A stretch of 64,000 nucleotides of DNA from Bacteroidota bacterium (GTDB lineage: Bacteria > Bacteroidota > Ignavibacteria > Palsa-1295), in NCBI GenBank assembly GCA_030706745.1, contig JAUZNX010000001.1, positions 434,001 through 498,000 on the forward strand. The letters run 5' to 3'. Of this stretch, positions 6,162-29,431 are shown in pieces. The translations under genes were made by a program, and so were the position numbers. The stretch's first letter is position 1. Every line of letters begins with the position of its first letter. Under the pieces are notes generated by a model. It had not been told where the DNA came from and made no database searches. It worked only from the letters and a program-made list of their open reading frames with translations.

Positions 6162-7895
6162 ATGACGATGCCCCTGGACGAATCCCGCACCACAGCAACC
6201 ACGCCGATGCGCGTACCGCCATCTATCACTCGGCGTTCATCAATCCTGGTTGCCTTGGTCGGACTTATCATCGCTGCGATCTGGGTGCCGGCTCGGATGC
6301 ATTTCCCGTTCGATGATACCTACATCACCTTTCGGTACGCCGCAAATATCGCGCATGGGTTTGGCATCGTCTGGAATCCCGGAGGGCCGCATACGGAAGG
6401 ATATACGAATTTCCTGTTCGTGCTTTTACTCGCCCCATTCAGCGCAATTGGCGCGGACCTTCTTATCATCTCGCAGGCGCTTTGTGTCATCGCTGTCATC
6501 ATTACTGCGATTGCTCTTTCCAGATTGAAGGTCGCTGGATTTGTCAGACGAATTGGTCCAAGTGGTCCCACAGGTCTTAGTGCCCAATGGATCGGTCTGT
6601 TCGCCGCCACACTTTTTCTACTCGATCCACTGACGTGGATCAATGCCTACAGTGGGATGGAAACCAGCCTCTTCACGATGTGGATTGTGCTGGCAATCAC
6701 AACATGCGATCGGCCGCGGCTGCCGTATATATTTGCAACGTTCGCGACACTAACGCGACCCGAGGGTGCGATCCTGGGCGCGATTCTCTTCGCCATAAAT
6801 TACTGGCACGGTCGCACCGATTATGAAACACGTTTATCACGGTTGTTCGCGCCAGCGGTATTCTATTTTGTGCTTCCATTACTGTTCTATGCAGCATGGA
6901 AGCTGTGGTATTTCGGCGATCTGCTTCCGAATTCCTTTTATGTAAAGGTCTCGCAAGCCAATCCGAATCACACGTGGAGTCCGGGCCGCCGAATGGTCTT
7001 TGCCTATTATTTGCGTTCATGGTATCTTGCGTTGCCCGCATTCTATGTGCTGTGGATATCATTGCGTGCAATGCTCCGAGAACGATTCTCGTTTGTTGCT
7101 CTCGCGCAGTACCGGGTTCTTCTGGTGGCCGGGCTGTGGGTCGTTTTGATGAGCGGTTTCTATGTGTTTTCGCAGGTCATGATGCCGAACTACTATCGCT
7201 TCTTCAATTCCATTGAAGCGATGTTGATCGTTCTAAGTGCGGCAGCTTCCTCCATCGTTTTGGCAAGACAGAATAAGCCGGGGGTCCGTCGCTGGCTGGT
7301 CCCATCGGCACTCGGAGCATTCGTGCTATTGCATATTGCATGGTCTCTCACGGTCCGTGGTGGATGGATGTGGATCAATTGGGATACCAGTTACGAGCAA
7401 CACGCGATGCGCGTCGTTCCAATACTCGAGAGCATTCCGAATCACGAAGCAATTTCACTGGCTACTGGTGATGCCGGAATCCTGCCGTACTATGCCAACT
7501 TTCAGCACATTGACTTCGTGGGTCTGAACACGACTGCAATCGCTCGTGCGAGAACGACGAATGATGTGCTTCGGTATCTCGATAGCGCCCGGCCAGATGT
7601 GCTCTTTATTCCGGTCGAGCTCGCGCGGCCAGCCGATCCGCTACATGGTCACGACACATGCCGTCAGATCATTCGCTGGGGGCATGGACTGATTGGGCAG
7701 GGTGGCTATCCACGGCTCGCGCAGCAAGCGCTTGCGAGCGGCTATCGACCAGTCGCGACAATCTCGGAGGTCGTCTATGATTTCAACGTGCTCGTCGATA
7801 CGTCCTCGCATCATTATCGAGATATTACATCGGCATTTACGCGCAACATCGGAATCAATCCGCTCATCGGCCATCCGGTCGAATGTATGTGGTAG
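6162..7895 (+). CDS. GT-C fold membrane glycosyltransferase, copy 2
   Basis: 577 aa, same architecture as copy 1, with FPFDDTYITFRYAANIA and GFGIVWNPG identical and the rest diverged, so the duplication is not recent. Charged DD loop, multiple membrane segments, then a periplasmic tail with GDAGILPYYANFQHID. The ATG at 6162 is the first in frame after the upstream stop; similarity to copy 1 starts about 12 codons earlier (NDDKRAFYDATL), so TTG 6105 or GTG 6108 is a real alternative. It ends 14 bp before the convergent terminase stop. Substrate unknown. Confidence 0.72.
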   Translation: MTMPLDESRTTATTPMRVPPSITRRSSILVALVGLIIAAIWVPARMHFPFDDTYITFRYAANIAHGFGIVWNPGGPHTEGYTNFLFVLLLAPFSAIGADLLIISQALCVIAVIITAIALSRLKVAGFVRRIGPSGPTGLSAQWIGLFAATLFLLDPLTWINAYSGMETSLFTMWIVLAITTCDRPRLPYIFATFATLTRPEGAILGAILFAINYWHGRTDYETRLSRLFAPAVFYFVLPLLFYAAWKLWYFGDLLPNSFYVKVSQANPNHTWSPGRRMVFAYYLRSWYLALPAFYVLWISLRAMLRERFSFVALAQYRVLLVAGLWVVLMSGFYVFSQVMMPNYYRFFNSIEAMLIVLSAAASSIVLARQNKPGVRRWLVPSALGAFVLLHIAWSLTVRGGWMWINWDTSYEQHAMRVVPILESIPNHEAISLATGDAGILPYYANFQHIDFVGLNTTAIARARTTNDVLRYLDSARPDVLFIPVELARPADPLHGHDTCRQIIRWGHGLIGQGGYPRLAQQALASGYRPVATISEVVYDFNVLVDTSSHHYRDITSAFTRNIGINPLIGHPVECMW

Positions 7896-25161: not shown

Positions 25162-25283
25162 CGGCTTTGCCGGCGCGAGCCACAAAAAAGAAGCCGGAGC
25201 GGTTGCGGCTCCGGCCATCAGTCTGCTTCAAAACCCCGGCTCGCAACCGGCCGGGATTTCTTGACTTCAAAACCAACAGTGAC
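25162..25283 (+). ncRNA. Structured leader RNA, copy 1
   Basis: A 122-nt stretch directly before the Cys-rich gene, nearly identical to 27335-27454. Hairpin A: gccggagc / gctccggc (25193-25215) with loop ggttgcg. Hairpin B: cccggc / gccggg (25235-25255) with loop tcgcaaccg. The two loops contain exact complements (GGTTGCG and CGCAACC), so they could form a kissing interaction. A smaller cggc-ttt-gccg stem precedes them. Could be a regulatory leader, or simply duplicated terminator-like DNA. Confidence 0.5.
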
Positions 25284-25760
25284 ATGAAAACACGAATTCC
25301 ATTACGATTATTGGCGCTGGTAGCGTTGCTGCTAGCGTTGACGATCCCCACGAGCAAGAGCCTCGCGCAGCAGACGTCTGTAGGTTACGTTGACCAATAT
25401 GGTAACGGCGTACTCAGCGTATCGGACAGCGTAATAGAAGCTGCATTCACAAACGAGCTCAATCAAAATGCAAACGATTCGTTGCACAGCGCAACCTTCA
25501 CGAGCATTAGCATTCTAATTATTAGTGGCAATTATTGCCTTGTTGCTCAGGGAAGTAGCGCCTCCTACTTCTCCATCGTCAGTAGAGTGGAGCTTACTGA
25601 AGATCTATCGGGAAATCTCCGAATTAGCGACAACTCCTCAACGACATGTGATTGTTCTGCGGGAGGGTGTCCTGCGGATTGCACAACCGTTCGTTGCCCT
25701 TGTCCTTCATCTGCCACATTGCTTTATAACGGGGCAAATCACCTCGGCACTTTCTATTAA
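25284..25760 (+). CDS. Small secreted Cys-rich protein, copy 1
   Basis: 158 aa from ATG 25284, where identity with copy 2 begins. Signal peptide MKTRIPLRLLALVALLLA...SLAQ. The mature part is beta-rich (ATFTSISILIISGNYCLVA), then a Cys cluster CDCSAGGCPADC...CPCP, and a conserved end NHLGTFY. Seven Cys in all, six in the cluster in the pattern CxCx4Cx3Cx4CxC. No family recognised. Partnered with the thioredoxin-like gene downstream, so the cluster probably forms disulfides or binds metal outside the cytoplasm. Confidence 0.75.
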   Translation: MKTRIPLRLLALVALLLALTIPTSKSLAQQTSVGYVDQYGNGVLSVSDSVIEAAFTNELNQNANDSLHSATFTSISILIISGNYCLVAQGSSASYFSIVSRVELTEDLSGNLRISDNSSTTCDCSAGGCPADCTTVRCPCPSSATLLYNGANHLGTFY

Positions 25761-25780
25761 TACTTAGAAATCATTGATGG

Positions 25781-25813
25781 CTCACCACCGTGTCAAGTTC
25801 GAGCGGTGGTGAG
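25781..25813 (+). terminator. Hairpin between Cys-rich gene and oxidoreductase, copy 1
   Basis: 10-bp stem ctcaccaccg / cggtggtgag with 13-nt loop, followed by gttttat. Reads as an attenuating terminator that would make the small protein more abundant than the downstream enzyme. Confidence 0.65.
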
Positions 25814-25839
25814 GTTTTATCACTTTTGTTGAGGAACCC

Positions 25840-27279
25840 ATGACGAAGTACCTTCTGGTTACACTTCTTGCCCTATTTGGGAATAGGTCTCAAAGCCATC
25901 CCCAAAGTCGGAATTCAATTCCATTCCGCTCTACGTCGCTGGAAATTCACACTAAGGCAACGCCAGGTATTTGGGTATACCTACTCAAGAACCAGTTTCT
26001 CAATCTTCCGCGCGAACCCATTGATTCGGTGCAAGTTGATAACCAAGGAATTGTACGATTTCGGTTTATTCCCGATCCGAATGCTTGGTATCGCCTAGAT
26101 GTGGGATTTGCAGAACTCGCCTATGGCTGCTTTGCGCTTGGTGACAGCATTATTGCCGAAACAAATCCAAAAGTTCGAGGACTACAAGTTAGATACGATA
26201 AGATCGGGGCGTTCACAAAGCAGATTCAATACTACTATCACGAGAAGTGGAGCATCCCGGAAATACTCAAGGATACCTCCTGCGTGGGTATCTCAGGATA
26301 TATGGATTCTATTCAGATTAAGGCTAATCGCTTTCGTGCCGAGGCAGTCCAGATTCGGATGAAATTTCCCGAACACGCCTACTTCGTAAAGGACATTGAG
26401 CGATGGTCGTGGTTATTCAGTCAATATGCTTTAGCGACACTCTTTGCTAGTCTGAATCAAAGCACCATTGCCAAATGCCCGAATTACGCCTGTGGATGGC
26501 TTGATACGGCCTCGCTCAACCTTCTGGATACTAAGCTTGATCCTGCGGATCCGTACCTCGTCGTCTCACTCCTGATTGACGCTCAATATGCGCGCTTGAA
26601 CGAATTGCACCCATCTGCCTCGAAAAACTATGGGCTAGATTCACGCTTCGACATCGCCACCAAGTTCGTTCATTTTGCCCGGAGTCTTGCATACCTCTAT
26701 GTCACTGAGGCCGAGTCGAATGCACCTCCGGAAAATCAGTTGCCCTATATCAAGATGATGATAGACACGCTTCGCCTCTACCACGAGAGCCCGGAGGTTT
26801 ATAAATCACTTCAGGCGCGAGAGTTCTTGGTCCTCAAGCGGATGCCCATGAGCCCTGCTTACGCGTTCATGCTACCCGATTCTAACTATAAGCTCTGGAC
26901 TCTGTCTGATTTTCGTGGAAAAGTAATCCTATTGCACTTCTGGGCAACTTGGTGCCCACCTTGCCTAAAGGACCTTCCTTACTTTCAGGAATTCGAGCGA
27001 AGGCATATTGGAGACACCTCACTCGCATGTGTTGGTATTTCACTGGAGAATCACTCCTTTACAAAATGGAAAGAATTTCTATCGACTCAAAAGCTAAGTG
27101 GTGGTATTGAACTCTACGGAGAGGGAGTCGTTGAAAATGAAACAGCTCAGGGTTTTGGTTTTAGTGGGTTTCCAGCCTATGTGGTCATAAACCGAGATGG
27201 TCAAATTACGGCATCACATATGTCAACCGGTTTTAAGAAGGATTTTGAAAGGGAGATTGAAAGAGCTGAACGAGAATAG
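25840..27279 (+). CDS. Secreted TlpA-like thiol-disulfide oxidoreductase, copy 1
   Basis: 479 aa; start supported by GAGG six bases upstream. Short signal peptide MTKYLLVTLLALFG. Residues 25-110 form a DUF4369-like beta-sandwich (GIWVYLLKNQF, DSVQVDNQGIVRFRF), followed by a helical middle with paired Cys (CPNYAC). The C-terminal 150 residues are a thioredoxin/TlpA fold: LSDFRGKVILLHFWATWCPP, active site WCPPC, and cis-Pro region FSGFPAYVVINRDG. Likely acts in the periplasm or at the surface on the Cys-rich protein encoded 80 bp upstream (inference from pairing). AT-richer than flanking genes. Confidence 0.85.
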   Translation: MTKYLLVTLLALFGNRSQSHPQSRNSIPFRSTSLEIHTKATPGIWVYLLKNQFLNLPREPIDSVQVDNQGIVRFRFIPDPNAWYRLDVGFAELAYGCFALGDSIIAETNPKVRGLQVRYDKIGAFTKQIQYYYHEKWSIPEILKDTSCVGISGYMDSIQIKANRFRAEAVQIRMKFPEHAYFVKDIERWSWLFSQYALATLFASLNQSTIAKCPNYACGWLDTASLNLLDTKLDPADPYLVVSLLIDAQYARLNELHPSASKNYGLDSRFDIATKFVHFARSLAYLYVTEAESNAPPENQLPYIKMMIDTLRLYHESPEVYKSLQAREFLVLKRMPMSPAYAFMLPDSNYKLWTLSDFRGKVILLHFWATWCPPCLKDLPYFQEFERRHIGDTSLACVGISLENHSFTKWKEFLSTQKLSGGIELYGEGVVENETAQGFGFSGFPAYVVINRDGQITASHMSTGFKKDFEREIERAERE

Positions 27280-27334
27280 TTGCATAAGTCAACTCAAGCA
27301 TGTTTTGTGAACGATTGAGGGAACAAATAATCTC

Positions 27335-27454
27335 CGGCTTTGCCGGCGCGAGCCACAAAAAAGAAGCCGGAGCGGTTGCGGCTCCGGCTTCTTCTGCTTC
27401 AAAACCCCGGCTCGCAACCGGCCGGGATTTCTTGACTTCAAAACCAACAGTGAC
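27335..27454 (+). ncRNA. Structured leader RNA, copy 2
   Basis: Same 120-nt leader as at 25162. Here hairpin A has a 12-bp perfect stem (agaagccggagc / gctccggcttct, 27362-27392) around the same loop ggttgcg, and hairpin B is unchanged (27406-27426, loop tcgcaaccg). Differences between copies fall in the base of stem A, while both complementary loops are conserved. Confidence 0.5.
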
Positions 27455-27919
27455 ATGAAAACACGAATTCCATTACGATTATTGGCGCTGGCAGCACTCC
27501 TGCTGGCGTTGGCGATCCCTGCGAGCAAGAGCTTTGCACAGACATCGATCGGTAATGTTGACGTATTCGGCAACTGGGTGCTTACATATAACAACAGTAC
27601 GCTCGAAGCTGCCTTTACGGATGAACTCAATAGTGGTTCGGACACAACGGTATACAATGCTACGTTCACTAGTGTTAGTATTGTGGTAGTCGGCGGAATC
27701 CACTATTTGGTAGCAGAAGGCAGCAATAGCGGTTTGGCCTCTGTAGTCGCAAAGGTACCCGTAGCGCAATCCTCTGGCTACATATACTTGGACGGGAGTC
27801 AGGACGTGACATGCAGTTGTGAGTTTGGAGACTGCGGTTCAGGGTGCATTCTTTGCCCGTGTCCTACATCGAACAACACCTTGGTTGGCGGTGCGGGTCA
27901 TCTCGGTAACTTCTATTAA
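27455..27919 (+). CDS. Small secreted Cys-rich protein, copy 2
   Basis: 154 aa. The signal peptide is almost identical to copy 1 (MKTRIPLRLLALAALLLA), but the mature part has diverged strongly: NVDVFGNWVLTYNNSTLEAA, SIVVVGGIHYLVAEGSNSG, Cys cluster CSCEFGDCGSGC..CPCP, end GHLGNFY. Six Cys, all in the cluster. Conserved leader and signal with diversified mature sequence recalls secreted peptides under diversifying selection. Function unknown. Confidence 0.75.
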   Translation: MKTRIPLRLLALAALLLALAIPASKSFAQTSIGNVDVFGNWVLTYNNSTLEAAFTDELNSGSDTTVYNATFTSVSIVVVGGIHYLVAEGSNSGLASVVAKVPVAQSSGYIYLDGSQDVTCSCEFGDCGSGCILCPCPTSNNTLVGGAGHLGNFY

Positions 27920-27926
27920 TCTCATG

Positions 27927-27958
27927 ACCCCTCCGCCGAGTGATCTCAGCGGAGGGGT
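27927..27958 (+). terminator. Hairpin between Cys-rich gene and oxidoreductase, copy 2
   Basis: 10-bp stem acccctccgc / gcggaggggt followed by ttgatt. Unrelated in sequence to the hairpin at 25781 but in the same place in the cassette. Confidence 0.65.
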
Positions 27959-27967
27959 TTGATTGTT

Positions 27968-29431
27968 ATGCATCAACGAACAAGAACAATGCTGCGAAGA
28001 ACTTTCTTTTTCCTGAGCCTGATGTTTTCAATTCCGATCGCGCTGCCCGCACGCGGGACAATGCTGCACGCTACGATAGAGATTCTGACCAAGAAAGAGG
28101 CAGGGACAGTCGCTTCCTTGTATGCAAACCCCTACATACCCGGTATTATGTCGATCGGGCAGAGTAAGCAACTTTCTGTGACCGCGGATTCGGGCGGTTC
28201 GTTCAAGTTCTCGTTCGAACCAAATCCCTATTGGTACTATAGAATTGAAGTCGCCGGTAACGCCATCATGTATGGGTGCTTCGCGAATGGAGACAGTATC
28301 GTGGTGTCACCGGGTGGATGGAACATGAAGGTCATATTTGATAGAATTGGCGCCTACACAGAGGAAAACAGATACTACACATACTATGGTGGTAAGTTGT
28401 TCATTCGGACCGTACCGGAAAAGATAACTTGCGATGGCGTTGCGAGTTTCCGTGATTCTGTAGCAACAACCAGCGCCGGAATTCTGTCTGATTACGACCG
28501 GATTAGTCGGATGTACCCGGAACACGTTAACTTCGTTCGCGATCTCAAAAGATGGTGCAACACTTTTGAGCTATATGCCATGGCGGTGCTTGCCAAAAGG
28601 TTCGAGAAACATGGGCTATTGGATTGTTCCTCTTATAACTCACAATGGCTTGACACTGTGAATCTTGATTTTCAAAAGGATCAACTTAATCCATTGGACA
28701 TTGCAGAAATTGTCGGCTCCGTTGTTGAGGCTCGACTCTCGAGAGCGAAACGTAACAACACCGAATCAGCCGTTCCCAAAAACGATGTGGCCTGGCGACT
28801 TCAGATTGCATCTCGATTACACGGACTGGCCCGAGATTTTGCATTTCTTTATGTGGCCGTAATGGCCCCGAACGAGCGCCCGAAAGATATCCTTCCATAC
28901 CTTTGGGCTATGGTGGATACGATGTATAAGTATGGGGCAAATCCCATTGCCCGGCAAGCACTTGAGCGCAATATTGGTTTACTCGAAGAGCGTTCCCCAG
29001 GCGCGGATGCCTACAACTTCATGCTTCCAGATTCGAGCTATAATATCCGTTCGCTGTCTGATTTTCGAGGCAAAGCTGTTCTCATCCATTTTTGGGGTAC
29101 ATGGTGTGGACCTTGCATCAACGAGTTGGAGAGAGTCCGCGACTTCGAACAAAAGCATGCCAACGACTCAAACCTCGTTTGCTTGAATGTGGCCTTAGAA
29201 GATCACCGTTATGGGAAGTGGAAGAAATTTCTTTTGGAGCATCAACTTGCAGGCATACAACTCTATGCTGAGGGACTTTGGGAGAGCGATGTTGCCCAAA
29301 AGCTTGGAATTATTGGTGTTCCCTTTCGACTCGTGATAGATGACAAAGGGAAAATTCTTAACTCCTTCTCTGGAACAAACTACGAGAACACTGAGCTTGA
29401 AAAGGCAATTCTTGATGCCGAAAGAATTTGA
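27968..29431 (+). CDS. Secreted TlpA-like thiol-disulfide oxidoreductase, copy 2
   Basis: 487 aa from ATG 27968 (TTG 27959 and ATG 27989 also possible). Signal segment MLRRTFFFLSLMFSIPIALP. DUF4369-like N-terminus (GTVASLYANPYIPG, SFKFSFEPNPYWYYRIE), helical middle with ECF-like pair DCSSYNSQWLD, then a thioredoxin domain: LSDFRGKAVLIHFWGTWCGP, active site WCGPC, cis-Pro block IIGVPFRLVIDDKG. About the same length and domain order as copy 1 but only moderately similar, and the active-site dipeptide differs (GP against PP), which usually changes redox potential. Confidence 0.85.
   Translation: MHQRTRTMLRRTFFFLSLMFSIPIALPARGTMLHATIEILTKKEAGTVASLYANPYIPGIMSIGQSKQLSVTADSGGSFKFSFEPNPYWYYRIEVAGNAIMYGCFANGDSIVVSPGGWNMKVIFDRIGAYTEENRYYTYYGGKLFIRTVPEKITCDGVASFRDSVATTSAGILSDYDRISRMYPEHVNFVRDLKRWCNTFELYAMAVLAKRFEKHGLLDCSSYNSQWLDTVNLDFQKDQLNPLDIAEIVGSVVEARLSRAKRNNTESAVPKNDVAWRLQIASRLHGLARDFAFLYVAVMAPNERPKDILPYLWAMVDTMYKYGANPIARQALERNIGLLEERSPGADAYNFMLPDSSYNIRSLSDFRGKAVLIHFWGTWCGPCINELERVRDFEQKHANDSNLVCLNVALEDHRYGKWKKFLLEHQLAGIQLYAEGLWESDVAQKLGIIGVPFRLVIDDKGKILNSFSGTNYENTELEKAILDAERI

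Follow-up and report, generated by a model that had tools for sequence, protein, structure and literature searches.

Tandem cassettes encoding a six-cysteine exported protein and a TlpA-like thiol oxidoreductase in a Bacteroidota genome

Bacteroidetes encode small exported proteins of the NVEALA type, which bear cysteines and occur near TlpA-like genes. Dedicated thiol-disulfide oxidoreductases are found in bacteriocin operons, among them pediocin PedC, sublancin BdbA and BlpGst (PMC4919988). The locus described here lies in a 64,000-nucleotide stretch (the window) of a 3.81-Mb Bacteroidota genome and, like those operons, pairs an exported, cysteine-bearing product with a thioredoxin-like enzyme encoded alongside it. 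It differs from them in coming from a Gram-negative phylum, in using a Sec signal peptide, in having a product of about 130 amino acids with a predicted folded N-domain, and in that its enzyme is of a different, TlpA-like type. No double-glycine leader or dedicated ABC transporter was recognised among the open reading frames at 22–33 kb of the window. By analogy, the cassette would resemble pediocin/PedC-type pairs in its working; it falls outside those families. The small protein also differs from NVEALA-type proteins in that none of 15 members of its family matches the NVEALA Pfam model, and a literature search found no description of this pairing of small protein and thiol enzyme. We propose, with moderate confidence, that each cassette encodes a client together with its own thiol enzyme, which would act on the client's disulfides.

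The window contains, at 25162–29431, two tandem copies of one four-part unit, in the order leader of about 120 nt, small Sec-exported protein, strong hairpin and TlpA/ResA-like thiol oxidoreductase of about 480 amino acids (Table 1). The duplication is real, and this arrangement, including the hairpin between the small gene and the enzyme gene in both copies, agrees with a sequence-only reading of the window. Full-length identity between the two small proteins is 51%. Each has a Sec-type signal (ending SKSLAQ or SKSFAQ), an N-domain and then a cysteine cluster, and both carry the pattern C-x-C-x4-C-x3-C...CPCP and the C-terminus HLG[TN]FY that the same reading had picked out.

Table 1 Features of the tandem cassettes and of related third genes
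Feature	Position	Strand	Remarks
Leader, copy 1	25162..25283	+	GC-rich hairpins; 97% identity to copy-2 leader
Small exported protein 1, 158 aa	25284..25760	+	signal peptide, N-domain, 6-Cys cluster, HLGTFY tail
Six-Cys cluster, small protein 1	25647..25703	+	
C-terminal tail GANHLGTFY, small protein 1	25731..25757	+	
Intergenic hairpin, small gene 1/enzyme 1	25781..25813	+	z -3.7
TlpA/ResA-like thiol oxidoreductase 1, 479 aa	25840..27279	+	
Enzyme 1 active site CPPC	26953..26964	+	
Leader, copy 2	27335..27454	+	
Small exported protein 2, 154 aa	27455..27919	+	
Six-Cys cluster, small protein 2	27812..27862	+	
C-terminal tail GAGHLGNFY, small protein 2	27890..27916	+	
Intergenic hairpin, small gene 2/enzyme 2	27927..27959	+	z -6.2
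TlpA/ResA-like thiol oxidoreductase 2, 480 aa from ATG 27989	27989..29431	+	ORF open from TTG 27959
Enzyme 2 active site CGPC	29105..29116	+	
DUF3078-like third gene of related cassettes	L037:8483-9379; L039:8327-9223; also L040, L043, L046		

The small exported protein apparently represents a real family without a name in curated libraries. Consistent with the earlier statement that it fits no named family, neither the window proteins nor any of 15 family members score above the curated cut-offs of Pfam and NCBIfam, and a PDB profile search with the small protein returns weak, chance-level matches only. A model of the mature protein built from four sequences, of moderate confidence for the N-domain (mean pLDDT 72), shows strands, one helix and four further strands, with the cysteine segment unresolved, and has no relative among PDB folds at E <= 0.001. 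Among the wider relatives, some show a more regular CxGxxCxxC...CxC...CNH pattern. One tail-less relative (L104, in G341:C110, oriented 6332-7174) ends in a match to a T9SS type A sorting domain (TIGR04183, E 6.9e-5, 22.8 bits against a cut-off of 23). Distant lipoprotein relatives at L072 and L075 (genus g218) adjoin an M48 peptidase gene, at L075 by sequence resemblance. An independent duplication is seen at L046:5428-6441, where two tandem members of the family are followed by a single enzyme.

The two enzymes (479 and about 480–490 amino acids, 36% identical) both match Redoxin (PF08534; 53.0 and 48.6 bits, cut-off 26.6), AhpC-TSA (PF00578) and Thioredoxin_8 (PF13905) above cut-off. Enzyme 2 probably starts at the ATG rather than at the TTG. 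The active sites are WCPPC in enzyme 1 and WCGPC in enzyme 2, the cis-Pro position reads GFP with CPPC and GVP with CGPC, and the closest solved structures by sequence are 2lja, ResA (1st9) and TlpA (1jfu). By domain, CxxC and cis-Pro criteria both enzymes are TlpA/ResA-like, and they are predicted to carry out thiol-disulfide exchange. Of the earlier description of a DUF4369/TlpA-like enzyme, the TlpA likeness, the length and both active sites are confirmed; DUF4369 (PF14289) gives no Pfam match at E <= 1 in either enzyme. They share with TlpA/ResA/CcmG-type oxidoreductases the C-terminal thioredoxin-fold domain with its CxxC. They differ in an N-terminal extension of about 330 residues that has no Pfam match, and in that their genes directly follow the gene for a six-cysteine exported protein. 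The enzyme model is of low confidence (pLDDT 54), with a β-rich N-terminal region and a helical middle, and is too poor for a fold search or for locating a binding site.

Relatives of the small protein were sought in 391 genomes of the class and 395 genomes of the phylum, and their gene neighbourhoods were then read. Within the genus, the small protein occurs in two of seven genomes. The nearest other carrier belongs to this genus and is the Candidatus Kapaibacterium metagenome assembly JADGPZ010000009.1; a Chlorobiota assembly is a more distant carrier. A thioredoxin-domain gene lies directly downstream at all 13 class loci whose small protein ends in a GHLGNFY-like tail, which span five families (f1, f4, f7, f14 and f19; tail type G[HYE][LI]GxF[YFHN], with 13 loci scored loosely and 11 strictly). 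At tail-less class loci with enough flanking DNA, the enzyme is downstream in one of seven. The association of tail and adjacency gives a Fisher p of 1.8e-4 for a post hoc criterion, and strict scoring gives 11/11 against 3/9 (p about 0.002, calculated by hand); both values are guides only, because the tail was defined after the data had been seen and some of the counted loci are related (G264b with G383, and the two window copies with G001). The enzyme is also present at the tail-less pair G193a/b. Every linked cluster contains exactly six cysteines, at variable spacing.

Outside the class, a thioredoxin-like neighbour is found at one of 11 distant tail-less loci (L074, a weak Pfam match), and many of these 11 encode lipoproteins. 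Distant relatives with similar cysteine clusters are mostly without an adjacent enzyme, indicating that dedicated pairing is a property of just the tail-bearing branch. Other genomes thus show the small protein and a TlpA-like gene recurring together, as predicted, and the opposite pattern named as its refutation, homologues mostly without the oxidoreductase, is absent from the tail-bearing branch and present in the wider phylum family.

In a tree of thioredoxin domains the linked enzymes cluster beyond chance, yet do not form one clade: there are five label changes, at least three of them forced by well-supported branches, in a tree that has to be read with caution for its long branches and one frameshifted cassette. 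The linked enzyme of G025 has a different N-terminal region. Together these findings indicate that the association with the thioredoxin domain has recurred, and the small protein–enzyme partnership probably arose several times. Adjacency at every tail-bearing locus is seen although a genome's total of such thiol enzymes is only about 4–10. At L040 (G110:C30), one of the 13 tail-bearing loci, a frameshift in the region of the thioredoxin active site splits the neighbouring TlpA-like gene, which may reflect assembly error or decay, and a second enzyme gene comes after it.

The spread of linked enzymes over several lineages, the distant homologues that do without the enzyme and the general role of many TlpA-like enzymes would also suit co-regulated envelope stress genes, in which a general thiol reductase and a protein made under the same condition stand in no enzyme–client relation. 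We consider this unlikely, as adjacency at every tail-bearing locus, limited to tail-bearing members, and an invariant set of six cysteines are unexpected from loose co-regulation.

Several cassettes related to those of the window, in families f4, f7 and f19, have as their third gene one for an outer-membrane protein that belongs to or resembles DUF3078 (PF11276; Table 1). This gene is absent from the window cassette and is common across the class in the absence of the small protein; relatives turn up in 258 of the 391 class genomes, and the DUF3078-like protein was accordingly rejected as a specific third partner. At L188, L192, L195, L196 and L199, a DUF3078-like, barrel-like gene is found downstream of genes for small exported cysteine-containing proteins unrelated to this family; often a thioredoxin-like or large exported protein is encoded between the two, hinting at a broader module.

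In the close pair G264b/G383 the small protein evolves under purifying selection (omega 0.07), and its cysteine cluster and tail show no amino-acid change (dN 0 at dS 0.25), so that the constraint on the cluster whose absence would have counted against the sequence-only reading is present. Such slow evolution speaks against the small protein being a disulfide-rich, bacteriocin-like antagonistic peptide with the enzyme as its maturation factor, comparable to pediocin/PedC or sublancin/BdbA. That possibility draws on the dedicated thiol oxidoreductases that mature such peptides (PMC4919988), the variable six-cysteine segment, the duplication with divergence and the patchy distribution in the genus. 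The signal peptide is nevertheless of the Sec type rather than a double-glycine leader, no transporter or immunity gene is evident in the window cassette, and there are lipoprotein and T9SS-borne relatives; we regard an antagonistic peptide as improbable.

The leaders and the first 13–14 codons of the two copies are nearly identical, and similarity falls off beyond: pS between the copies is 0.08 for codons 1–14 and 0.44 for codons 15–28, and synonymous sites are saturated in the mature region (pS 0.96). The sister species has a single cassette; mature identity to it is 62% and 51% for the two copies, against 44% between the paralogues, and in the enzyme tree the copy-2 enzyme groups with that of the sister species. 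As each copy is closer to the sister-species cassette than to its paralogue, the duplication is old, and we infer that gene conversion, or some process like it, has homogenised the leader and first codons (window 25162–25310 and 27335–27480). The contrast between a constant leader and a variable product, earlier taken as a sign of a specialised system, is best explained in this way.

The leader had been expected to recur in such cassettes elsewhere; it is confined to this genus: it is 82% identical over 95 nt in the sister species and gives no match at significant E outside the genus. It had also been called structured. GC hairpins are present, and a complementary GGTTGCG/CGCAACC pair is retained in all three leaders; folding is just modestly unusual relative to shuffled sequence (z -1.3 and -2.95). 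None of 27 predicted pairs is changed on both sides among the three leaders, and an Rfam 15 covariance-model search of the region gives nothing above gathering score, with a single sub-threshold match (E 0.21). The identity of the leaders is therefore attributed largely to homogenisation, with no RNA element demonstrated, and in view of the covariation, Rfam and extra-genus results we make no claim of a conserved RNA, riboswitch or attenuator.

The hairpins after both small genes of the window are far stronger than shuffled sequence (Table 1). Wherever an intergenic gap separates the two genes, in eight cassettes, a strong hairpin follows the small gene (z -2.6 to -6.2), and the eight hairpin sequences are unrelated to each other; in the remaining cassettes the small gene and the enzyme gene abut or overlap. 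The hairpin may allow more client than enzyme to be produced.

An inventory of DsbD, DsbB and VKOR in eight genomes found DsbD in all eight and neither DsbB nor VKOR in any, using searches that gave matches in control genomes. The presence of DsbD with DsbB and VKOR undetected favours an isomerase or reductase, and a reduced, DsbD-fed enzyme of this kind appears likelier than a DsbA-like oxidase. That a surface metal-binding or redox-sensing protein has its cysteines kept reduced for binding by the enzyme would suit this inventory and the regular cysteine pattern of some wider relatives, but is improbable too, given that cysteine spacing varies widely among linked members, that conserved His ligands are lacking except in the tail, and that six cysteines at variable spacing fit disulfides better than a metal site.

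The reading of each cassette as a client with its own thiol enzyme draws on the observed gene order, linkage, six cysteines, tail correlation, purifying selection and Dsb inventory. In this scheme, Sec would export the small protein, made up of N-domain, variable six-cysteine segment and a conserved tail at the C-terminus. The TlpA-like enzyme encoded beside it would be exported to the same compartment of the envelope and act on the cysteines of the small protein, probably as an isomerase or reductase held reduced by DsbD. The six-cysteine segment would thereby attain its correct three-disulfide state, and the tail may have a role in the pairing. The specialised folding or maturation system suggested by the sequence-only reading thus draws support from genomic linkage and cysteine constraint, and none from the shared leader or from the wider family, which is mostly without the enzyme. 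More tentatively, the cassettes could belong to an undescribed modular export-and-folding system of the Kapaibacteria–Chlorobiota branch. Here a constant N-domain would carry an interchangeable six-cysteine segment, and a GHLGNFY-like recognition tail would tie the protein to a thiol enzyme of its own and, for several of the families, also to an outer-membrane protein of the DUF3078-like kind.

If the proposal is true, the cassettes would provide a defined enzyme–client pair for studying how disulfides are handled in a part of the phylum that has no detectable DsbB or VKOR, and the short C-terminal tail would be a directly testable candidate for an enzyme-recognition signal. The family would also anchor a class of exported proteins missed by curated libraries.
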